Origin: Gemmatimonas groenlandica
GTDB taxonomy: Bacteria > Gemmatimonadota > Gemmatimonadetes > Gemmatimonadales > Gemmatimonadaceae
Assembly (NCBI RefSeq): GCF_013004105.1
Contig: NZ_CP053085.1
Location: 1,984,001-2,048,000 of the forward strand
Direction: 5' to 3'
Length of the DNA: 64,000 nt
Position 1 is the first letter of the stretch. The number at the start of each line of letters is the position of its first letter. Both the position numbers and the translations under genes were made by a program. The notes beneath the pieces were generated by a model. The model saw only the letters and a list, made by a program, of their open reading frames with translations. It was not told the DNA's origin and searched no databases. Below are positions 3,485 through 60,432 of the stretch, in pieces.

Positions 3485-4990
3485 GTGCGCACGCTCCTAG
3501 TGACGGCGTTCGTGCTCCTCGCGTGCGGTGTTGCCGGCGGCTGTGCCGATCGCTCGTCCCGCCCCTCCGGAGCCGACGCCACTCCCAGTATCCCCGGTGG
3601 TCCGGACCCGATCGTGTTGCGCGTTTCGCGCGACGGCGGCGTTATGACGGCTACCCGATATCCGGATCTCGATTCCACGCTGTGGCGATCGAGTGCGCGG
3701 CTCCCCGCACTCGATCGCATCATCGCGTTCGGTGCTGAAGACGGCTATCTCGCCGCCGTCGACACGAGCGGTGCGCCGGTGCGCATCGATATCCGCCTCG
3801 GTACGGTGACCACGTCGCGAACCGATGATGTGGCCGTCGCGTCATCGGCTGATGGGGGTGCGATCTACGCGCTCACGACCGACGGCGAGATCACGCGCTA
3901 CACACCGAGCGGCGGCGACTGGCGCTTCACGCCCAAGCTGCCCGCGCACGCGCTCTATGCACAGGCCGACGGCTCGTTGATCGTGGCCGGCGCCAAGGGC
4001 GATCGCGCCGTCGTGTGGCGCGTGCGTCCTCCTGGTCAGGACGTCACCGACAGTTTGTCGTTCGATATCGGCGGCAACGAAGCCACGCTGCGCAAGTCAC
4101 TCGGCGCGACCGCCGGCGCCGTTGGTGATCGGGTGTTCTTCGGCGGCAACGAAGAAGTCATCGCCGTCCGCACGCGCGATCTCGCCAAGGCACTCGAAGT
4201 GGACATCGGCGATCCGATCACGGCCATCGCCGCCACGCCAAGTGGTGACCGTTTGTTCGTGGCAATCGAGAACGAAGCATTGTTGCGCGTCGTCGATCGT
4301 TTCGAAGAAGGAGTGAAGGGAAAGATCACGCTGCCCGGCGTACCGCGTGCGCTGCGCATGGACCCATTGGGTCGCGTGCTGCTGGCGCGTGGTGCGGACG
4401 ACTCGGTGTATGTGATCAGCCTTGGCAGCGATGCCGTGATCGGCGTCGTGCGCAGCGAATGGCGCGGCGATCTGCCTCTGGTTTTGCCCGATGGCGCGAT
4501 TGCCACCACTCGTGGAGAAGACGTGGTATTCGCGCATCCGTCGACGTTGGCCGACATGCGGACCGTCGAAGGTGGTGCGCGTCAGTTCTGGTACACACTG
4601 CGCTGGAACGGCTTCCGCCCGCGTGCCGCCGGTCTCGATCAACCCGTGCAGTTCCGCACCAGCGCACCGCGCGATTCGGTGGACTATGCCGACAGCGCCG
4701 CGGCGCGTGATGTCGTGCGTGATGTCGGGCGGGACACGTTGCGCCGTGATACGGCAACGACGGCGTCGGCGTTCACCGTATCGTTCGCCGCGGTGCTCGA
4801 GGAGAAGCAGGCACGTCAGCTGGCGTCGCGCATCCGCGTCGACGGCGAGACACCGCGCATTACGACGTCTGACCGTGCCGGAAAAACCTTGTATCGCGTG
4901 GTGCTCGGCCCGTACCCGACTCGCGCCGACGCCGAGCGCGTCGGCAAATCGTCGGGACAGAGCTATTGGATCTTCGAGGGGGCACCGTGA
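3485..4990 (+). CDS. Lipoprotein with beta-propeller-like body and C-terminal SPOR domain
   Basis: 501 residues from a GTG at 3485. This start is chosen because it begins a clean lipoprotein signal (VRTLLVTAF...) with lipobox VAGGC; the frame is open further upstream but that stretch has no signal sequence and overlaps the hairpin at 3413-3450. The middle has repeated strand-turn units of a WD/NHL-like propeller. Residues about 429-500 form a SPOR domain (FTVSFAAVLEEKQARQLA ... YRVVLGPYPTRADAE), the family that binds glycan strands lacking stem peptides at division septa. Its TGA at 4988-4990 overlaps the GTG of the next gene (4987-4989), so the two are probably translationally coupled. Lipidation and septal binding are inferred from family. 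Confidence 0.8.
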   Translation: MRTLLVTAFVLLACGVAGGCADRSSRPSGADATPSIPGGPDPIVLRVSRDGGVMTATRYPDLDSTLWRSSARLPALDRIIAFGAEDGYLAAVDTSGAPVRIDIRLGTVTTSRTDDVAVASSADGGAIYALTTDGEITRYTPSGGDWRFTPKLPAHALYAQADGSLIVAGAKGDRAVVWRVRPPGQDVTDSLSFDIGGNEATLRKSLGATAGAVGDRVFFGGNEEVIAVRTRDLAKALEVDIGDPITAIAATPSGDRLFVAIENEALLRVVDRFEEGVKGKITLPGVPRALRMDPLGRVLLARGADDSVYVISLGSDAVIGVVRSEWRGDLPLVLPDGAIATTRGEDVVFAHPSTLADMRTVEGGARQFWYTLRWNGFRPRAAGLDQPVQFRTSAPRDSVDYADSAAARDVVRDVGRDTLRRDTATTASAFTVSFAAVLEEKQARQLASRIRVDGETPRITTSDRAGKTLYRVVLGPYPTRADAERVGKSSGQSYWIFEGAP

Positions 4991-9300: not shown

Positions 9301-9935
9301 CTGGACAGCGCAACGACCTCGTGGCGGCCAAGCAGTCGCTGCATCAGGCCATCCGTGAAATCGACAGCACGGCTCGTGAGCTGTTCCTGGCCACGTTCTC
9401 GCAGGTCCGCGAGAACTTCCGTCAGATCTTCCTGCGCATGTTCGGTGGTGGCGAGTGCGATCTGCGGCTCGAGAACCCCGATTCGCCGCTCGACTGTGAC
9501 ATCGAAGTGCACGCGTCGCCGCGCGGCAAGAAGACGCAGCGCATTCACCTGCTCTCCAGCGGCGAGCGCGCGCTCGTGGCGTTGTCGCTGCTGTTCGGCA
9601 TCTTCCTCACCAAGCCGAGTCCCTTCTGCCTCATGGACGAAGTGGACGCGCCGCTCGACGACCAGAACATCGGCCGCTTCGTGAAGATGCTGAACGACTT
9701 CAAGTCGCGGACACAGTTCATCGTCATCACGCACAATCCGCGTACGACGTCGGAAGCCGCTGATGCGGTGTACGGTGTGACGATGCAGGAGCCCGGTGTG
9801 TCGTCGATCGTGAGCGTGCGCCTGCGCGGTGGTCAGCAGGTGGACGAGACCATCGTGCCCGACGACGCCATCGCGGGCGAGATCGGCGGTGAAGAGGCCG
9901 ACGAGGACTCCGCCGCGGAACCGTCGCCGGCGTGA
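6372..9935 (+). CDS. smc: Chromosome segregation ATPase SMC
   Basis: 1187 residues, the usual length for bacterial SMC. The N-terminal head has Walker A GPNGSGKSN at 31-39; long coiled coils (about 165-510 and 680-1010) surround a hinge near 520-670; the C-terminal head has the ABC signature LLSSGERALVALSLLFGI near 1060 and Walker B with catalytic Glu in FCLMDEVDAPLDD near 1085. It organises and segregates the chromosome with ScpA/ScpB, which are not in this window. The GTG start overlaps the upstream TAG and its TGA overlaps the next GTG, so it sits inside a tightly coupled run with two SPOR proteins. Confidence 0.97.
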   Translation: MRLTKLEVHGFKAFADHLEFVFEKGVTAIVGPNGSGKSNVSDAVRWVLGEQRARAMRGAKMEDVIFHGSSARKAVNMAEVSLHFDNTEGELPVPFKEVVITRRLLRSGESEYLLNRAPCRLRDIQDLVRGTGLGADSGVVIESKMIDALLSDRPDERRELFEEAAGVGLYRDRRRSAERRLEETTVDLARLDDLINEVQSQVRSLARQRRRAERHAELMARRFQVEISLATREMAAWREELAALDGRLEELQQDVPGGEEAIAQAELLREQAHGARSAAEASRLELARLSTEQRDKTQKLERELAVSEERQRSTTMRKQRAEEERKENEAFGRRLREDRERAVGDRTTLEKELADAGEALQERLAAEQTTREAVQQSRAVLEQLERQVREHRDQARRIELDRDGASREHLETQNRREALEIERQQLADALDVTERELIAAREQVSITQANAQDALHALEGARLAAATARTADAESRSALASAVQSRTALEGRLNALAALERERVGLAPSAAKLLKERERFGEGAVLGPLTDFLTADGEAAKLVERYLGATMHAIVVRDAEAAAAVRRWHADTQPGPLLLLPLDVVTDLGADADALAGSVQSSGAASRWVRALLGKVRAIDSGEAFIDERGAVFLPGTATGPGPLQRRAEITRLESDLAAADARRDECMMAAEAARLALGEAERAQQAAMETSNRAQQESRRAADVQQEVERRRERAERELQQSSALAERLISRLEELDSRTKQLAQQAEALHARAGEADADIAEAREAMSIAERDQEQAREARATWQVAQAQAQARLSVAIDREKRLNEEDSTAAARLESLARELTNLSEADQNLAQQLDGWRSELDTEQKTLADADARLADAERAVAAATGALDEAERMLDEARRRSSALGEQLHGAQLRHTELSGRREAIRQRLETEWRRTLEDLLAGFEELDLETDVLRTEAKQLRESLDELGPVNPLAIEEHEEEQRRLEFLTGQRNDLVAAKQSLHQAIREIDSTARELFLATFSQVRENFRQIFLRMFGGGECDLRLENPDSPLDCDIEVHASPRGKKTQRIHLLSSGERALVALSLLFGIFLTKPSPFCLMDEVDAPLDDQNIGRFVKMLNDFKSRTQFIVITHNPRTTSEAADAVYGVTMQEPGVSSIVSVRLRGGQQVDETIVPDDAIAGEIGGEEADEDSAAEPSPA

Positions 9936-19355: not shown

Positions 19356-20234
19356 ATGCCGTCGGGGGTCCCGCCGCGGTTCCGGATACGCTTCTGGGGA
19401 ACCAGAGGCACCTGCCCCAGTCCGGGGCCGCGCACGGTGCGGTACGGTGGCAACACGCCATGTGTGGAGCTTCGGGCGGCCGACGGCGGTCTATTGATCC
19501 TCGATGCCGGCACCGGCATCCGGGCGCTGGGCGCGCATCTCATGAGCGATGGCGACGATCGAACGGCACACATATTTCTGTCGCACCGACATAGCGACCA
19601 TGTGTTGGGATTGTCGCACTTCGCGCCGCTGATCACGCAGACGCGCGCGATCGAGATCTGCTGCGGCGACGGTGAGTCGGCCTCGCTGCAGCCGTTCGTG
19701 GATGCCCTGCTCTCGCCGCCGATGTTCCCCTACGTCGACGGCATTCGCAGCCGACTCGACGTGTGCGACTGGGACCTCTCCAGCGCCCGCGAGGTCGGCA
19801 CGTCACGCGTGCATCGCTTCGCCGCGCAGCATCCGGGCGAAGCGGCCGTGCTACGTATCGACGACGCACACGGACCGGCGGTGGCGTATGCGCCGGACAA
19901 TGAGTTGGCTTACGCCGACGAGTCGGAGGCGGCCGAGGCGTGGCGGGTACGGCTCACGGCGTTCCTGCGCGACGTACCGGTGTTGATACACGACGCGACC
20001 TATCTCGAGAGCGAACTCCCCAAACATGTAGGCTGGGGGCATTCGTCATCTCTAGAGGCTACGCGCCTGGCGATCGCATGCGGCGCGGGCATGCTGGTGC
20101 TGTTTCACCATCATCCCGATCGCGATGACGACACGATAGAGCGCATGGTCGAAGAGAGCCGCGCGATGGCGGCCGCGGCCGGGAGCGCCCTGCGAGTGCT
20201 GGCGGCGTGGGAAGGACTGGCGCTGACGGTGTGA
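19356..20234 (+). CDS. MBL-fold metallo-hydrolase
   Basis: 292 residues starting MPSGVPPRFRIRFWGTRGT. The metal motif is HRHSDH (SHRHSDHVLGLSHFAPL), preceded by LLILDAGTGIRALG. Further ligands are likely in YAPDNE, in LIHDATYLESE and in the late histidines of VLFHHHPDRDDD. This is the subgroup of the beta-lactamase fold often annotated as cyclic-phosphodiesterase-like. The position next to a cNMP-type regulator would fit a nucleotide-degrading role, but that is only a guess. It is the last gene before the left end of the island. Confidence 0.78.
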   Translation: MPSGVPPRFRIRFWGTRGTCPSPGPRTVRYGGNTPCVELRAADGGLLILDAGTGIRALGAHLMSDGDDRTAHIFLSHRHSDHVLGLSHFAPLITQTRAIEICCGDGESASLQPFVDALLSPPMFPYVDGIRSRLDVCDWDLSSAREVGTSRVHRFAAQHPGEAAVLRIDDAHGPAVAYAPDNELAYADESEAAEAWRVRLTAFLRDVPVLIHDATYLESELPKHVGWGHSSSLEATRLAIACGAGMLVLFHHHPDRDDDTIERMVEESRAMAAAAGSALRVLAAWEGLALTV

Positions 20235-20236
20235 GA

Positions 20237-20293
20237 TTCTGGAACTGCCAGGGGCGCTAAGAGTGAACGGCGCTAAGAGTCAACGGCGCTAAG
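20237..20293 (+). repeat. Left arm and short 16-bp repeat array of the island
   Basis: A 24-base arm (20237-20260) is followed by two full 16-bp units, GGCGCTAAGAGTGAAC (20253-20268, overlapping the arm) and GGCGCTAAGAGTCAAC (20269-20284), and a partial third. The same arm and unit recur in inverted orientation at 25287-25442. It lies just after the stop codon of the MBL gene. Confidence 0.75.
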
Positions 20294-20393
20294 GTAAAAT
20301 GCGCGAAGAATAGGAAGCGGGAAACGCTGTGCAGCGCCCTCGCGGTACACTCGAACAATGCAATCAGCCGAATCCGACTGGTTGCCGTAGTGC

Positions 20394-21257
20394 CTACGGT
20401 ACACAGCCGATCATTGCACAGAGCTTTAAGTGTGCCTTTTCTGATAGCGGCTCGATTGAGAAAGTACGAGTGCTCCCGGGCACAGCTTCTCTCTTGCGCG
20501 CGACAGGGGCGGAATCAACGGCAAACCCACCAAACACCCCGAGCGCGCCGGAAACTCCCGCGCGATACCGCAATGTGTCGATGGTGAAATTGTAGAGATT
20601 TGTATCGAGCGCGACCACGCGAATGAACGTCGCCAAGGGAAGCTGAGAATCGGCCACGTCGCGCAGGAGCACTAAAGACGTATCTGCGGTGAGGTAGGTC
20701 TGTCGCGTGACGCTACTCGATACCACGTATTGAGCCGCGCCGGCCGATCGATTCCACACAATCGATTCTACCCCGGCTGTTTCGACGACGTGCGGCCTCG
20801 AAATCTCTGGGAGCACCATGGTGCCGATAACGCTCTCGGCACCAGATGCAACGCGAAGCGTATACCGTGCGCCCCCGATCAAGTCTTTCGCGCCTAGACC
20901 TGAAGTGCCGGCCACCCAGTCGAGCTGAAGGTTTCCGACGTCAGCCGGAGAGCTGTCGAAGAACGGAAGTTGACCGACAGCGCCCGAGTGCGTGAGCGCG
21001 AAGACACCGCCGGTGCTGGACAGCGATAGCTGGGAAGGGGCTACGTATTCGAACGATTGCGGCGAGGACATCAGCGCGAACAAACCGCGAATTGGAGACT
21101 TTGGCGCGACGCCGACCGCACCGGGCGAGAGAATCAGATACAACGACAGCGACGGACGACTCTGCAAGATTTCGGTCGGATTCGCGCAGTCTGCAGCGAC
21201 CATGATCGCCAGAGCAAGCCACGCACGACGAAGCCGCGATGGATTGTTCCTCACCAC
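20394..21257 (-). CDS. Putative lipoprotein, resembles the DUF4249 group
   Basis: 287 residues with an N-terminal signal and lipobox (LALAIMVAADC). The remainder is beta-rich, with GARYTLRVASGAESVIGTMV followed by a proline/strand pattern reminiscent of DUF4249 lipoproteins, which often sit beside TonB-dependent receptors. That resemblance is weak and by eye. The start overlaps the end of the receptor gene by 7 bases, so it is the third gene of a three-gene operon. A 6-bp hairpin (20385-20390 with 20394-20399) overlaps its stop codon. Base composition is lower in GC than the flanking genes. Confidence 0.6.
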   Translation of the reverse strand: MVRNNPSRLRRAWLALAIMVAADCANPTEILQSRPSLSLYLILSPGAVGVAPKSPIRGLFALMSSPQSFEYVAPSQLSLSSTGGVFALTHSGAVGQLPFFDSSPADVGNLQLDWVAGTSGLGAKDLIGGARYTLRVASGAESVIGTMVLPEISRPHVVETAGVESIVWNRSAGAAQYVVSSSVTRQTYLTADTSLVLLRDVADSQLPLATFIRVVALDTNLYNFTIDTLRYRAGVSGALGVFGGFAVDSAPVARKREAVPGSTRTFSIEPLSEKAHLKLCAMIGCVP

Positions 21258-23470
21258 CTCACCTCGACGCCTATCGATGGCACCAAAGGAAGGCCGGCGC
21301 GGCGAGCAGTCGGAGTCTGTCCGCTTGCGACCTGTGCCAGGTAAGTCGCGGCATCGTAGGCCACCACATTGCGCTTGTACAGCAGGTTTACCACTTGCAG
21401 CGAAGCATCCACCTCAAACGCCCTCGGGGTCCATCGCTTCCGCAAGGCGACATCGAATCGCTGGAAGCCAGGAAGTCGAGCACTGTTCATCTCCCCGTAG
21501 ATAAGCCTCGACTCTCCCCCGGAACCGTCGAACGAAGGAACGATCACTCGCCCCACTATCGGCGTAATGGGCAAACCGCTTCGCATTGCTCCTACCACGG
21601 AGAGTGACAGCCGTCTCGGAAGTGGTAGCGTAAATACTCCACTGATGTTAGACGGCGTGTCCCAACTGGTGGGGACCCACTCGTCATGCCGACGCGTCAA
21701 GCTCCGCACGAACGAGTACGTCAGCTGCGCGGATGGGCCGCTGGCATGCCGCGCGAGCACGGTGGTAGCGATCCCGAGACTGCGGGCCGGCGCCCGTTCG
21801 AAGAGCATGTCAGACGTACGCGAGGCGGCTGGACCAGAACGTTGCGCACTTGTCGTGCGGTCCGCGTACCATCTCACCGCAGCGGTCGTGTGCAGTGAAT
21901 AGGCGACTCCACCGTCTGTACGCTCGTGCAATCGGTACTCTAGCGACACGGCGTCCATGAGACGAGGACGAGAGAGGAGGAAAGTCGGCTGTGGTCTGGT
22001 GTTCTCTGGATCACTGAGCTGAGCGTCGAACTGCGCGCGTCGCTCAATGCCTATGGATACTTGTTGCGCGGAGCTTGACAGCACTTTCGCAACTAGCTGC
22101 GGCGCGAATGCACTCGACGAGTCTGCAACGGTGATCCGCGCTCCCGCCGACAGCGACCGTCCTTCGGAGAACTTCAGCAAGAACTGCGAGCCGACGGCAA
22201 GCAGGCGCTGCCTCGCCGAAAGGTCGAGCCGCTCGCTACCGCCGGCTCCCGTGCGGATGTTCAGCCAACGATGCATATGCCGACGTTCGTCAAGGCTCAC
22301 CACTCCGCTCGCCTCTAACACGCGCCAAAGCTGCAGCTTCGCGCCCGCTTCTGCGCTGAACCAGGATTGCACGTTGTTGACAGCGGCAACACCAGCTACC
22401 TGGTTGCGGTCGAGAGTCTCTGCACGATCGTGCGACGTCCGTAGATGCGCATCCATCCGCTTGCCGGCGAAGGTCAAACGAAGACCACCCAGCGTTTCTG
22501 ATGAGCGGAGCGGCACACCAGTCGAACCCGGCCCTGGGCGCTCTGCATCGAAGGCTCGCGACCCGAGCAGTTCGACGCGGCTGGATGGGGTGGGCGTGAA
22601 CCCGAACCGAACGAGAGCATCTGAGAAGTCGGGCACCCGCGCCGAGCTAGAGCCGCTGCCGTCCGTGACTCGATTCAGTAGCGCGCCGATGTACGACGCG
22701 CGTGCGCTTACTAAAAGGTCTGCCCGTGTCGAGCTTGCGGAAACAACGGTCGCTCCGAGAGAGAGCAGGCTTGCAACGAGCTCGCCGTTTCGCTCTCGGC
22801 CCGGCTGCCGGGTTGTAACGGCAACCAGACCGCCGACACGGCTATCGACAACACTTGGGATTTGATTCAGGCGTAGCTCTACGCCGTCAATCGACGCGGT
22901 GTTGAAAGCCCCGATCACGTTCTGAAGATGCGCCATCGCTTGCAGCGGATGACCGTCAAGCGAATAGCTGGCTTCGTCGCCAGCGGCACCCAAAAGGTTC
23001 ACGCGAGCCTTCACGTCGTCGGGCTGTGTCACGCCTGCGAGCAACGGAAGCGCGCGATACACATCAGATTCGCCTACGGGAGGAATTCGACGAACTGATT
23101 CCCGGGTCATCGCCGCTCCCTCGCGTCCGCCGGAGACCAGAACTCCGGCGAGCGCGGTGGGGGCGACAGAGAGGACTACCTCGAGGATTTCATGCGGAAA
23201 CGCCGCGAGGTTAAGCGTCCGTTCCGCCGGCAAGTAGCCAACTTTCTGGAACCGCACGCGCGATGTTGTGCCATCGAGCAAAAGGGAGAAGCGTCCGTCC
23301 GTGCGAGTAAGCGCATAGGCAGAACCGTCGATGCGATCTACGCTCACGTCAGCAAGACCACGTCGAAGCGAATCTAAGACAATTCCCTTTACGACGCTTG
23401 GCTGCGAAGAAAGGCTGAACGGCGTTGCTGCTATAACGACGAGCAGCCTTCCAAATCGCGCGTACGTCAT
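21251..23470 (-). CDS. TonB-dependent-receptor-like outer-membrane protein with carboxypeptidase-type N-domain
   Basis: 739 residues. A signal (about 1-22) is followed by a CarboxypepD_reg-like domain (VVKGIVLDSLRRGLADVSVDR ... GRFSLLLDG, about 26-100), a plug-like domain (about 115-215, with VYRALPLLAGVTQPDD, YSLDGHPL and VDSRVGGLVAVTTR) and a long beta-barrel ending in Trp (GVEVRW), typical of outer-membrane barrels. I see no clear TonB box. It likely imports or binds a bulky substrate, or serves in surface display, together with the two flanking lipoproteins. It starts 2 bases after the upstream stop. Confidence 0.75.
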   Translation of the reverse strand: MTYARFGRLLVVIAATPFSLSSQPSVVKGIVLDSLRRGLADVSVDRIDGSAYALTRTDGRFSLLLDGTTSRVRFQKVGYLPAERTLNLAAFPHEILEVVLSVAPTALAGVLVSGGREGAAMTRESVRRIPPVGESDVYRALPLLAGVTQPDDVKARVNLLGAAGDEASYSLDGHPLQAMAHLQNVIGAFNTASIDGVELRLNQIPSVVDSRVGGLVAVTTRQPGRERNGELVASLLSLGATVVSASSTRADLLVSARASYIGALLNRVTDGSGSSSARVPDFSDALVRFGFTPTPSSRVELLGSRAFDAERPGPGSTGVPLRSSETLGGLRLTFAGKRMDAHLRTSHDRAETLDRNQVAGVAAVNNVQSWFSAEAGAKLQLWRVLEASGVVSLDERRHMHRWLNIRTGAGGSERLDLSARQRLLAVGSQFLLKFSEGRSLSAGARITVADSSSAFAPQLVAKVLSSSAQQVSIGIERRAQFDAQLSDPENTRPQPTFLLSRPRLMDAVSLEYRLHERTDGGVAYSLHTTAAVRWYADRTTSAQRSGPAASRTSDMLFERAPARSLGIATTVLARHASGPSAQLTYSFVRSLTRRHDEWVPTSWDTPSNISGVFTLPLPRRLSLSVVGAMRSGLPITPIVGRVIVPSFDGSGGESRLIYGEMNSARLPGFQRFDVALRKRWTPRAFEVDASLQVVNLLYKRNVVAYDAATYLAQVASGQTPTARRAGLPLVPSIGVEVRW

Positions 23471-23472
23471 TA

Positions 23473-25056
23473 CTATCGCGCCCTGCCGGCTTTTTTCGGG
23501 GTCGAACCACGGTTCCGCTCGGAGCCCGCTGTCGACGCGGAGTCAAACGGCTTTCGAAGTGATTCGTTGCACCCGGTACTTCCAGGTGGGCAACTACCGG
23601 AATTTACATTTACGGGAATCGACTGCTGATCCCAATAGGTTCCACCGTCCATCACGTCCAACACGAGTTCATGCGACGTGGCAGGCGTGTTGAAGCTCTG
23701 CTGATACGAGGAACCTGTGCCTACGAGCTGGCCATCGAGGTACCACCGATACGAATACGGTGCAGCCCCACCCGGCACGTACCCCGCCGTCCACGTGACC
23801 AACTGATACGGATAGATGTATGAATCACCAACGATCTGAGGTCGCGCCGGCGGAGCGGTAAACGATGGCCACTGCAAACTGAAGCTGACCTCGCGCCAGA
23901 AAAACAGCCTTCCACTTGAGGAATACGGACATTCAAAGGCTCCGAGCGAGGTAATCGCTCCACATCGGTCGCTTCCTCCACCCAATCGCGGTTCAAGGGC
24001 AGGTGCGTTCAATGCGTTTTTGGTTTCGTCGATTAGCTGGTAGAACCCGTAGTCATCGTCCGCCCACCAGCCATCGTTCTCCTTGAGCGAGACGTCAATG
24101 TAGCTGGTCGGGCTTTGAACAGCATCGAGCATTGGGAGACTTACTTCTCCGATAAACTGATTGTAGCCATCCACGTAGAGCGTCGATGTGCGAATAGTGC
24201 TTTGATCGCTGCGCCGCTTCAGTGAGCTTACCCACCTGAGCTCAAGCGGATTTGAGAAGCTTCCAAAGTCCTCGCCATTGATGACGTACAACGATTTTAG
24301 TGAGGTACCCGAAGGCGGCGTGCTTAGCCTCGCGCGCGCAAATGAGGTTGAGGCTGGCGCGCCGTTTCGACTCGTCACGTCGATTGGTGTCATCACGGAG
24401 TCACCGTTCTGCAGCCGAGTGACAAGCAACCCTCCTGCCTCAACCTCTTGCGGATCCTGAACGGTCTCCCGAGTTGAAATCCGAACTTCGCCGTTTCGAG
24501 GGATCAGCGCATCAAATGGCGCGATGACGAAGAGGGGGGCGCCTGAGTTCTCCCTCGCCGCAGGAAGCAATAACTCTTCAACTAACGAGGACCTACCATC
24601 ACTACCAAAGGCCACAGTAGGCTTAGCGCCCTTCGAAGTCTTCGCCACGACCACGACGCGGCCACGGCCATTCCACGAGAGTCGTTGTGTGCGGTTGGGC
24701 ATCCAGAGCGCTAGGACGCGCGCGCGCTCGAGAACCACATCACTTCGCACGCCGTGTGTGGATAGATTCTGAAAGAATCGTTCAGCAAACGGAGCCATCT
24801 CTTTTGAGGAAAGCAGGCCTCCCAGTTGAACTTTGTGCTGGGTAAATCGCGATGCGCGTAGCCGATCCCTGACGGCCATTGCGAAGGCTGGTTCCTGCAT
24901 CGTTTGTGCGAAGGCTTCCCCGATGCGGTCATCGATTGACATAGACGAAGCGACTGAAGCACCCACGTATGGATGAGTGAAAAGCTCAGGCTTCTCTACA
25001 CACGCCCACAGCGATAGGGCTCCCAAAAGCCCACATAGAACTCTTGCCACTTTCAT
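23473..25056 (-). CDS. Large lipoprotein with C-terminal PKD-like strand region
   Basis: 527 residues with a lipoprotein signal (MKVARVLCGLLGALSLWAC). The N-terminal part is mixed helix/strand; residues about 400-490 look like an Ig/PKD-type domain (YPYQLVTWTAGYVPGGAAPYSYRWYLDGQ). A basic, Ser-rich tail (TPKKAGRAR) closes it. I do not recognise the rest. It is the first gene of the island operon; a GAGG motif lies ahead of the ATG and a good promoter lies about 55 bases upstream. Surface function with the barrel encoded downstream is inferred from context only. Confidence 0.65.
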   Translation of the reverse strand: MKVARVLCGLLGALSLWACVEKPELFTHPYVGASVASSMSIDDRIGEAFAQTMQEPAFAMAVRDRLRASRFTQHKVQLGGLLSSKEMAPFAERFFQNLSTHGVRSDVVLERARVLALWMPNRTQRLSWNGRGRVVVVAKTSKGAKPTVAFGSDGRSSLVEELLLPAARENSGAPLFVIAPFDALIPRNGEVRISTRETVQDPQEVEAGGLLVTRLQNGDSVMTPIDVTSRNGAPASTSFARARLSTPPSGTSLKSLYVINGEDFGSFSNPLELRWVSSLKRRSDQSTIRTSTLYVDGYNQFIGEVSLPMLDAVQSPTSYIDVSLKENDGWWADDDYGFYQLIDETKNALNAPALEPRLGGGSDRCGAITSLGAFECPYSSSGRLFFWREVSFSLQWPSFTAPPARPQIVGDSYIYPYQLVTWTAGYVPGGAAPYSYRWYLDGQLVGTGSSYQQSFNTPATSHELVLDVMDGGTYWDQQSIPVNVNSGSCPPGSTGCNESLRKPFDSASTAGSERNRGSTPKKAGRAR

Positions 25057-25113
25057 AAATCTGCCTCGCTTTTGAACTATTTCTCAATTCGTCTCCATTC
25101 GGCGACTATCGCC

Positions 25114-25142
25114 AGTATTTGCCCGGATCAGGCGGGTGTCAA
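25114..25142 (-). promoter_or_regulatory. Sigma70-type promoter of the island operon
   Basis: On the minus strand TTGACA (25142-25137) is a perfect -35 box, followed by exactly 17 bases and AATACT (25119-25114), a 4/6 match to the -10 consensus. Transcription would start near 25107, giving a ~50-base leader before the ATG at 25056. Between this promoter and the repeat array (25143-25286) I see nothing else. Confidence 0.6.
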
Positions 25143-25286
25143 TGCGGAATAGCATACTGGGTGGGACGAGCGGAAAAGATGCGGGATAGCCGATCCTCAG
25201 CCAGTCTAGACTTGCCGAGCGACTGTCGCGAGAAAGCGCAGCGGCGGCGGCGTTTACTCATCGCCCGCTGTCACCTCGAGTAGTGT

Positions 25287-25426
25287 ACTCTTAGCGCCGT
25301 TCACTCTTAGCGCAGTTCACTCTTAGCGCAGTTCACTTTTAGCGCAGTTCACTTTTAGCGCAGTTCACTTTTAGCGCAGTTCACTTTTAGCGCAGTTCAC
25401 TTTTAGCGCAGTTCACTTTTAGCGCC
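25287..25426 (-). repeat. Tandem array of a 16-bp unit, eight full copies
   Basis: On the plus strand a partial unit (25287-25298) is followed by eight abutting units from 25299 to 25426. Units 1-2 read GTTCACTCTTAGCGCA, units 3-7 GTTCACTTTTAGCGCA, and unit 8 GTTCACTTTTAGCGCC. There are no spacers, so it is not a CRISPR. The reverse complement of the unit forms the left array at 20253-20293. The array ends one base before the hyuB stop codon. Confidence 0.92.
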
Positions 25427-25427
25427 C

Positions 25428-27005
25428 CTAGCTGTTCCTGAACCCCCAGCCGCCGCCTCCTGGCGTCTCTAGCGTCAGCACGTCGCCCGCCTTCATGTTC
25501 ACGCGACACTTGGCCGGAAGCACGTCACCGTTCAGCAAGTTCCGACCAGGCTGCGCGTCACCACCACCGTTCGCTCCCGGCGGCGCAACACGACGACGTT
25601 CGGTGAGCAACGTCGCTGTGCACGGCACCATCGCCTGATAGCGGCGCACGATGCCGTCGCCGCCGCGACTGGCGCCGGCACCACCGCTGCCGCGACGCAC
25701 GGAATACTCGACCACGCGCAGCGGATACGCGCGCTCGAGAGACTCCACCGGCGTGTTGCGCGTGTTGCTCATGCCCACGTGTACCGCGTCGGGTCCGTCG
25801 CCACGCGCACTGCCACCCTGCCCGCCGCCGAGCGTTTCGTAAAAGCTCCACCCGGGTGCGCCCAACGTGACGTTGTTCATCGTGCCTTGCCCGCAGGCGG
25901 GAATGGGCAAGTCGTGCACGCCGATGCTCGCCGCCGCTGCCGACAGCGCGGCAAAGCAGACATCGGTCATGCGCTGCGACAGTTCCACGTTTCCGGCCGC
26001 GACCGCGCTCGGTCGCTTGGCGTTCGCCACACAATCGTCGGGAATGGTGAGCGCCAGCGCGCGCGCCACGCCGTCGTTCACCGGCACATCGTCGTCGCAC
26101 AACACGCGCAGCACAAATACCGCAGCGGCTCGCGCCACCGCCGGCGGGGCATTCACGTTGCCGCGTACCGCGGGTGACGTCCCGGTGAGATCCAGATGCA
26201 ACGTGGCGTCCTGCACGCGCACATGCACGACCACCGGGATCGACGCGTCGCTCACGCCGTCGCCTTCCAGCGCGTCGGCGGCTCGGCCTTGGGCGCCTTC
26301 CAAGAGCTCGAGGCGTGCCCGCACGCGACGCTCGGTGTAATCGAGTAGCGCGTTCACCGCGTCGCCCAATGCGTCGGCGCCAAGTTTCGCGTATAGCGCC
26401 TGCCATCCGGTACGACCCGCCGCGCACGCAGCGCGCTGCGCTCGCAGGTCGCCTTCGCGCTCTTCCGGCGTGCGCACGTTCGCGAGCACCAGCCGCATCA
26501 CATCGTCCTGCGCCACGCCACCGCGCTCGATGCGCACCGGCGGCACGATGATCCCTTCCTGAAACAGCTCCGTCGCGCCGAACGGCATGCTGCCCGGACT
26601 CATACCACCCACGTCGGCATGGTGCGCGCGCACCGCCGCGTACCCGATGATGCGCTGCGCATCGTTGGCGTCGGCGATCACCTCGACCATTGTGAGGTCG
26701 GGCAAATGCGAACCGCCATGCGACGGATCGTTCAGTAGAAACACGTCGCCCGGAGCCGCACCACAGGCGCGCACCGCCGCCACCGACTCGGGCATGGCGC
26801 CCAGGTGCACTGGGATGTGCGCCGCCTGCGCCACCATACGCCCATCGGCGTCGAACAGCGCACAGCTCGCATCGCGACGCTCACGGATGTTCGGCGAAAT
26901 GCTGCTCCGTTCCAGCAAGCCGCCCATCTCCTCGGCGAGCATCGCGACGCCCTGCGAAAACACCGTGAGTTCGAGCGCGTCGAAACGCGCGCGAGTCGAC
27001 GTCAC
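25428..27005 (-). CDS. hyuB: Hydantoinase/oxoprolinase subunit B
   Basis: 525 residues from a GTG at 27005 that overlaps the upstream TGA. It matches HyuB/N-methylhydantoinase B: ERRDASCALFDADGRMVAQAAHIPVHLGAMPES, then VFLLNDPSHGGSHLPD, GNVNAPPAVARAA and the Gly-rich C-terminus (LETPGGGGWGF). With HyuA it would hydrolyse a hydantoin, 5-oxoproline or related cyclic amide using ATP; the substrate cannot be read from sequence. Its last codons (FRNS-stop) lie inside the inverted arm of the neighbouring island, so the C-terminus may have been reshaped by that junction. Confidence 0.88.
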   Translation of the reverse strand: MTSTRARFDALELTVFSQGVAMLAEEMGGLLERSSISPNIRERRDASCALFDADGRMVAQAAHIPVHLGAMPESVAAVRACGAAPGDVFLLNDPSHGGSHLPDLTMVEVIADANDAQRIIGYAAVRAHHADVGGMSPGSMPFGATELFQEGIIVPPVRIERGGVAQDDVMRLVLANVRTPEEREGDLRAQRAACAAGRTGWQALYAKLGADALGDAVNALLDYTERRVRARLELLEGAQGRAADALEGDGVSDASIPVVVHVRVQDATLHLDLTGTSPAVRGNVNAPPAVARAAAVFVLRVLCDDDVPVNDGVARALALTIPDDCVANAKRPSAVAAGNVELSQRMTDVCFAALSAAAASIGVHDLPIPACGQGTMNNVTLGAPGWSFYETLGGGQGGSARGDGPDAVHVGMSNTRNTPVESLERAYPLRVVEYSVRRGSGGAGASRGGDGIVRRYQAMVPCTATLLTERRRVAPPGANGGGDAQPGRNLLNGDVLPAKCRVNMKAGDVLTLETPGGGGWGFRNS

Positions 27006-60318: not shown

Positions 60319-60432
60319 GGTTCACGCGAAGCTCGCGAAGATACGCGAAGGCTCGCGAAGAACAGCAACAGAAAAACTTGTTTTGCTTTTCTTCGCGTAT
60401 CTTCGCGCATCGTCGCGAGCTTCGCGTGAACC
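60319..60432. repeat. Large palindromic element between convergent genes
   Basis: The 42-base arms (60319-60360 and 60391-60432) are inverted copies with 37 of 42 matching by eye, separated by a 30-base AT-richer loop that can pair again (AGCAA/TTGCT). Each arm is itself built from a ~10-bp unit around CGCGAAG. It lies 4 bases after the PPTase stop and ends 54 bases before the ubiE stop. A 10-base AACCGTCAGC occurs twice just after it (60438 and 60457). Confidence 0.9.

Follow-up and report, generated by a model that had tools for sequence, protein, structure and literature searches.

The window considered here, i.e., the whole stretch of 64,000 nucleotides that was analysed, comes from the 5.18-Mb genome of Gemmatimonas groenlandica (G000; other G numbers denote congener genomes). 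The element that it contains, locus A, is located between a gene for an MBL-fold hydrolase (19356..20234, plus strand; PF12706, 6.4e-14), the stop codon of which adjoins the left arm of the element, and hyuB, the gene for a hydantoinase B/oxoprolinase (25428..27005, minus strand; PF02538, 4e-176), with orthologues in 29 of the 30 genomes of the genus. Between the arms lie three ORFs, hereafter the cargo, all on the minus strand, in agreement with an earlier note on this DNA. Cargo gene 1 (23473..25056) encodes a 527-aa lipoprotein-like protein with a lipobox-like LWAC motif; cargo gene 2 (21251..23470) encodes a 739-aa TonB-dependent-receptor-like protein with a TTR-like N-terminal domain and a weak plug match (PF25020, 1.3e-6; PF13715 and PF07715, both weak), for which a search of solved structures found nothing; and cargo gene 3 (20394..21257) encodes a 287-aa lipoprotein-like protein with a lipobox-like VAADC motif, without a match in Pfam or NCBIfam. 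The cargo is poorer in GC than its neighbours, as had been proposed (0.56-0.62 against 0.64-0.71), and the difference is also seen at third codon positions (GC3 of 0.60-0.65, 0.653 in cargo gene 3, against 0.78-0.81). Family searches with the three cargo genes detected neither a transposase, as the note had stated, nor any other recombinase of the island's own, such as an integrase. The case for a private promoter of these genes is weak: the single promoter-like site 5' of them (25142-25114, minus strand) is at chance level, given 1.7 such sites in shuffled sequences.

The inverted arms themselves were readily recovered. The 24 terminal bases on the left (20237-20260, plus strand; TTCTGGAACTGCCAGGGGCGCTAA) and on the right (25442-25419, minus strand; TTCAGGAACAGCTAGGGGCGCTAA) are identical at 21 of 24 positions, the right arm indeed overlaps the last codons of hyuB, the stop of which is at 25428, and both arms run inward into a common 16-bp tandem unit, present in 2.6 copies on the left (20253-20293) and 8.7 copies on the right (25287-25425) according to TRF. 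When up to 3 mismatches are allowed, the 15-base unit core matches the window 12 times, compared with 2.4 ± 1.7 matches in shuffled sequences, none of 100 shuffles reaching 12. A model of the arm family (R1) extends both arms beyond 24 bases, to about 86 bases on the left (20237..20322, plus strand; 80.1 bits, E 1.3e-23) and about 160 on the right (25283..25442, minus strand; 58.3, 29.7 and 23.6 bits, along with TRF and unit matches). The left arm consists of a terminal part-unit, TTCTGGAACTGCCAGG, the 16-bp units GGCGCTAAGAGTGAAC (20253-20268) and GGCGCTAAGAGTCAAC (20269-20284), the 15-bp unit GGCGCTAAGGTAAAA (20285-20299) and, from 20300, the unit TGCGCGAAGAATAGGA. In the right arm, the terminal part-unit (25426-25442) is followed by nine 16-bp units, 6 of which are of an expanded type with GCGCTAAAAGTGAAC, and the inner specialised units have been lost. 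Elsewhere in the window, there are two short two-copy tandem repeats that are unrelated to the arms (3862-3914, period 26, and 60324-60361, period 20).

The arms are not private to this locus. The 24-base unit pattern occurs at 43 places in the G000 genome, with none for the reversed control, and under a looser pattern the places group into approximately 13 elements, nearly all with the left arm on the plus and the right arm on the minus strand, a count based on pattern searches together with model searches; further copies are found in congeners. Most of the elements are near-palindromes of about 170-250 bp; their core is short, rich in GC and particular to the locus, and in many cases it resembles a bidirectional terminator. 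The longer ones are A (5.2 kb, in the window), F (2.6 kb), D (about 1.5 kb) and E (about 0.6 kb). When 27 arms of both sides, taken from 6 species and 8 loci, were aligned, one common order emerged: a part-unit at the terminus is followed by two units of 16 bp, one of 15 bp with GGT, one with GCGCGAAGAAT and finally a tail. The arms thus descend from a single ancestral arm. Matches to the arm model number 34 in G000 and 11-25 per genome in G045, G048, G065, G066, G068 and G069; the remaining 23 congeners have few or none. Orthologous elements occupy the same loci in G045, G065, G066, G068 and G069, and, given that most copies are at loci shared by related species, the distribution is to a large extent old and due to vertical descent. 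Element K2 is present in G045 and G066 and absent from G000. Elements I and J (L038:8645-8890 and 9420-9616) are 775 bp apart in G000, and G045 has I, with J apparently missing. The family prefers gene ends. The unit pattern is absent from other genera of the family Gemmatimonadaceae and confined to Gemmatimonadota among 84,980 species genomes, and searches for viral or plasmid copies of the arms returned none, so we reject a wider, plasmid or viral origin of the arms. The short, non-coding, dispersed copies with terminal inverted repeats are of the kind by which MITEs are recognized; inspection of copies and congener loci disclosed no transposase that shares the ends of the arms, and no target-site duplication is visible at loci A, J, K or K2. 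Many of the relatives are represented by fragmented MAGs, in which contigs break at repeats.

Comparison of locus A across the genus points to the order of events. In distant congeners, among them G055 and G062, the stop of the MBL gene is about 10 bp from the end of hyuB, without arms or cargo. In G045, the MBL gene is followed by the left arm, the right arm and hyuB, the cargo being absent (the ends of hyuB lie on two contigs, so that G045 may mix strains); in G066, both arms are found at hyuB, also without cargo, and the Crp and MBL genes are lacking; G065 shows the right arm before its contig ends, and G048 offers only a fragment. In the hyuB tree, where the 'empty' label of G068 reflects a contig end and was disregarded, G000 is placed beside, not within, the group of G045, G048, G065, G066 and G068. 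The two larger cargo genes, 1 and 2, have no homologue in the other 29 congeners searched; relatives of the barrel protein encoded by gene 2 with 31-36% identity are found in four other genera of the family, and gene 1 has one partial relative among 178 other genomes of the family. Because cargo-free arms occupy the same locus in G045 and G066, the cargo apparently arrived later, in a foldback element that was already resident: most likely, it entered an arm element between the MBL gene and hyuB, and the simplest reading is that it was gained in G000 between older arms, although a loss in the sister group is conceivable. The earlier note took the locus for an island with the arms at its ends, which may be a non-autonomous mobile unit or a locus gained by recombination, an idea that would have failed had the three genes and their flanks been common to all relatives or had the arms been without further copies; neither was observed. 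Acquisition is supported by the absence of cargo genes 1 and 2 from 29 congeners, the arms-only site in G045, the close spacing of the MBL gene and hyuB in distant congeners, the many further copies of the arms and the foreign composition. As to the ends, the arms stand without the cargo at the very same locus in G045 and G066, which speaks against their being proper to the island.

Other elements enclose different DNA. The arms of locus F surround genes for HupE/UreJ-like, YHYH and VOC proteins, and those of locus E surround an IVP gene (PF05635, 3.1e-17; distant match to 2GSC and 2RLD), which G066 also has and which is damaged in G045 and G068. At locus D, where the right arm was found in the congener comparison, the G000 core holds an insert missing in G045, which is IS256-like as judged solely from its inverted ends (GGRCCTGTCRGGAATTCTGTGTATGAGTC; L033:9640-11300); similar ends cut K2 in G066 (L113). 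Stretches of 6-7 kb of G000 DNA beside elements M (L040:9966-16174) and H (L037:9232-16199) are missing from congeners, and at M the extra DNA is outside intact arms. With an IS256-like insert at D and extra DNA outside the arms at M, we reject the notion that all 'cargo' is equally mobile.

The IVP gene of locus E connects this family to a broader pattern. IVP genes are found in 28 of 30 congeners, with 1-9 per genome. When, for the 57 loci with sufficient flanks, the 300 bp upstream were aligned with the reverse complement of the 300 bp downstream, inverted repeats scoring at least 20 were detected at 46 (81%); of 2428 control windows, 10 (0.4%) gave such a score, and almost all of these were arm elements themselves. 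The arm sequences vary among IVP loci; their homologues are found mostly in related species, next to IVP genes of the same type. The arms are often tandem (median best self-match of 17 against 8 in controls), periods of 7 and 14 being the commonest. About 5.6 kb to the left of the window lies an IVP gene (G000:C1:1978063-1978377; L143) at which flanking inverted repeats are undetectable; this IVP type has similar flanks in many congeners (G062, G044, G046, G050 and G047), as if fixed in place. A second IVP locus of G000 (2497013-2497732) has arms unrelated in sequence to the 16-bp family, and eight further inverted pairs of this second arm family are present in the genome, 5 of which read as arms-only palindromes. 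The arms of a G047 IVP recur as four arms-only pairs and as one pair 2.3 kb apart that holds two PEP-CTERM proteins, and those of a G062 IVP recur at several places, several of them contig ends. For three of the four arm families, the starting point was an IVP locus, so that IVP membership is a given there, and what these families (the second of G000 and those of G047 and G062) teach is that other copies exist; the 16-bp family was found independently of IVP, and one of its members, E, turned out to carry an IVP gene.

This arrangement extends to plasmids of other phyla. Queries of a plasmid collection yielded 2 records with the locus E protein and 43 with a closer IVP. Inverted repeats flank 11 of 12 IVP genes in a first plasmid set, with scores of 21-31.5 that exceed those of local controls (9 of 10 cyanobacterial genes, one from Azospirillum and one from Gemmatirosa). 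In a second set, one of 6 genes reaches 20 (Riemerella, 20), and two more (16 and 17) are well above local controls. Several of the cyanobacterial IVP genes lie between two genes of the same operon; on the plasmids L271, L274 and L277, these neighbours are CRISPR-Cas genes (cas6/cas4 or cas10/cmr3).

For an arms-only sibling copy, a single long hairpin is predicted, at -121 kcal/mol (z -13.7); the cargo-free version of locus A folds at -95 kcal/mol (z -7.8). Covariation between the arms is weak, with double changes in 2 of 37 pairs and most pairs invariant, because the units are conserved as sequence; accordingly, we did not retain an RNA hairpin selected as such, and the conservation would also suit a sequence-specific DNA-binding protein. 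A known structured RNA was rejected as well, an Rfam search giving no match.

Taken together, these observations lead us to propose, with a probability of about 0.6, that the arms in the window belong to a copy of a dispersed, transposase-free foldback family similar to the intervening sequences (IVSs) of 23S rRNA but intergenic, and that a resident empty copy gained three foreign surface-protein genes. Under the best reading, the family includes full copies with an IVP gene, empty copies and cargo-bearing copies, most being empty palindromes and a few holding other DNA. The left array has few copies, the one point in favour of the view that chance placed unrelated tandem arrays on either side of a gene cluster; yet inverted pairs recur genome-wide, and an arms-only copy occupies the same site in G045, so this explanation has a negligible probability and can be dismissed. 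The recurrence across the genome also led us to reject private island ends.

A more serious, albeit unlikely, alternative is that the arms are static hairpins of the host, i.e., terminators or 3'-end elements acting as recombination hot spots, in which case IVP, IS and cargo would all have arrived as guests, by recombination or insertion into palindromes already present, and IVP would have no part in spreading the arms. Such a scenario sits well with the orthologous positions of most copies in several species, the terminator-like character of several cores, the IS in the D core of G000 but not of G045, the extra DNA beside rather than within M and the location of the 23S IVSs themselves at hairpin helices (PMC4990558). 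It does not readily accommodate the common unit order across many loci, which requires some dispersal, or the polymorphism of copies such as K2; moreover, unrelated arm families within one genome would each require their own dispersal, and the central position of 81% of the IVP genes between arms exceeds what random guests would produce. An improbable third possibility is that the family is an ordinary MITE-like one and depends, for mobilisation in trans, on a conventional transposase (DDE or HUH) whose gene lies at another place in the genome; the island would then be a transposon-like cargo copy. Long terminal inverted arms, short gene-free copies and cargo copies would all be expected of such a family, and miniature elements are known to bound composite units, as in the TIME-COMPs (PMC13367494). 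Against it, what the arms surround in the inspected copies and loci of congeners is an IVP gene, cargo, an empty core or an IS unrelated to them, not a transposase of their own, there are no viral or plasmid copies and no target duplication was seen, and the architecture goes together with IVP even where the arm sequences are unrelated.

Returning to the foldback family, arm dispersal and cargo gain are supported by the comparisons above, and we infer that mobility involves the IVP. The family would spread, or would once have spread, with the help of this four-helix-bundle protein, perhaps with the participation of a reverse transcriptase, by analogy with the homologous DGR protein Avd. Transcripts of the arms might fold and then be cut at the stem in the manner of the 23S IVSs, and recombination between arms could swap the DNA at the centre of the palindrome, which would explain the cargo. 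IVP proteins are common, and that no catalytic activity is known for them speaks against this reading. DGR retrohoming requires Avd, a protein to which the PF05635 family is similar (PMC10053308). A tentative generalization, one that we consider possible but would not yet favour, is that IVP genes are the master copies of widespread transposase-free foldback elements, of which the 23S IVSs are special cases, each lineage having its own arms, with empty and cargo copies mobilised in trans, perhaps via DGR-like reverse transcription. A search limited to the open-access literature found no description of a link between IVP and foldback elements. Should IVP genes generally be located in foldback elements, with numerous empty copies and some that bear cargo, IVP would gain a testable role and bacteria a class of mobile elements without a transposase; inverted arrays of short tandem repeats near gene ends, and one route by which foreign surface genes come to lie at such arrays, might be explained as well.

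The closest known counterparts are the IVSs of 23S rRNA, which have long been suspected to be mobile, although a mechanism is lacking, and which, with an IVP/S23p ORF, are also reported for Leptospira. In these IVSs, terminal inverted repeats surround an IVP gene, RNase III excises the sequence from the transcript and mobility has been proposed; that of Coxiella has, in addition to the terminal inverted repeats, tandem heptamers before the IVP ORF (PMC4990558). The elements described here similarly end in inverted repeats that can pair into a single long stem, and they have an IVP inside sibling copies and tandem units, as the Coxiella IVS has tandem heptamers beside its IVP ORF. Unlike the 23S IVSs, the window element is located between the MBL gene and hyuB rather than in 23S rRNA, holds three surface-protein genes instead of an IVP ORF and belongs to a family with many copies per genome, most of them without IVP, and with much longer arms made of tandem units. 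Bacterial MITEs and TIME-COMPs share the combination of short non-coding inverted-repeat copies with cargo-bearing versions; they differ in that here no transposase, parent IS or target duplication was seen, the arms consist of tandem units and the arm sequence is wholly different between families. Eukaryotic foldback transposons (FB, Galileo and Tm1) have long inverted arms of short tandem repeats that often nearly abut, as do the arms in many of our copies, but the present elements are bacterial, lack a Mutator- or P-type transposase and are linked to IVP genes. REP/BIME palindromes, which are mobilised by RAYT, are likewise dispersed intergenic palindromic repeats, whereas the 16-bp unit is itself non-palindromic and the arms span 80-200 bp. 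Finally, the STRR heptamer arrays of cyanobacteria resemble the tandem 7-nt repeats beside the cyanobacterial plasmid IVPs; however, STRRs are known as lone tandem arrays, whereas the heptamers of the plasmid IVPs form inverted pairs around the IVP gene.
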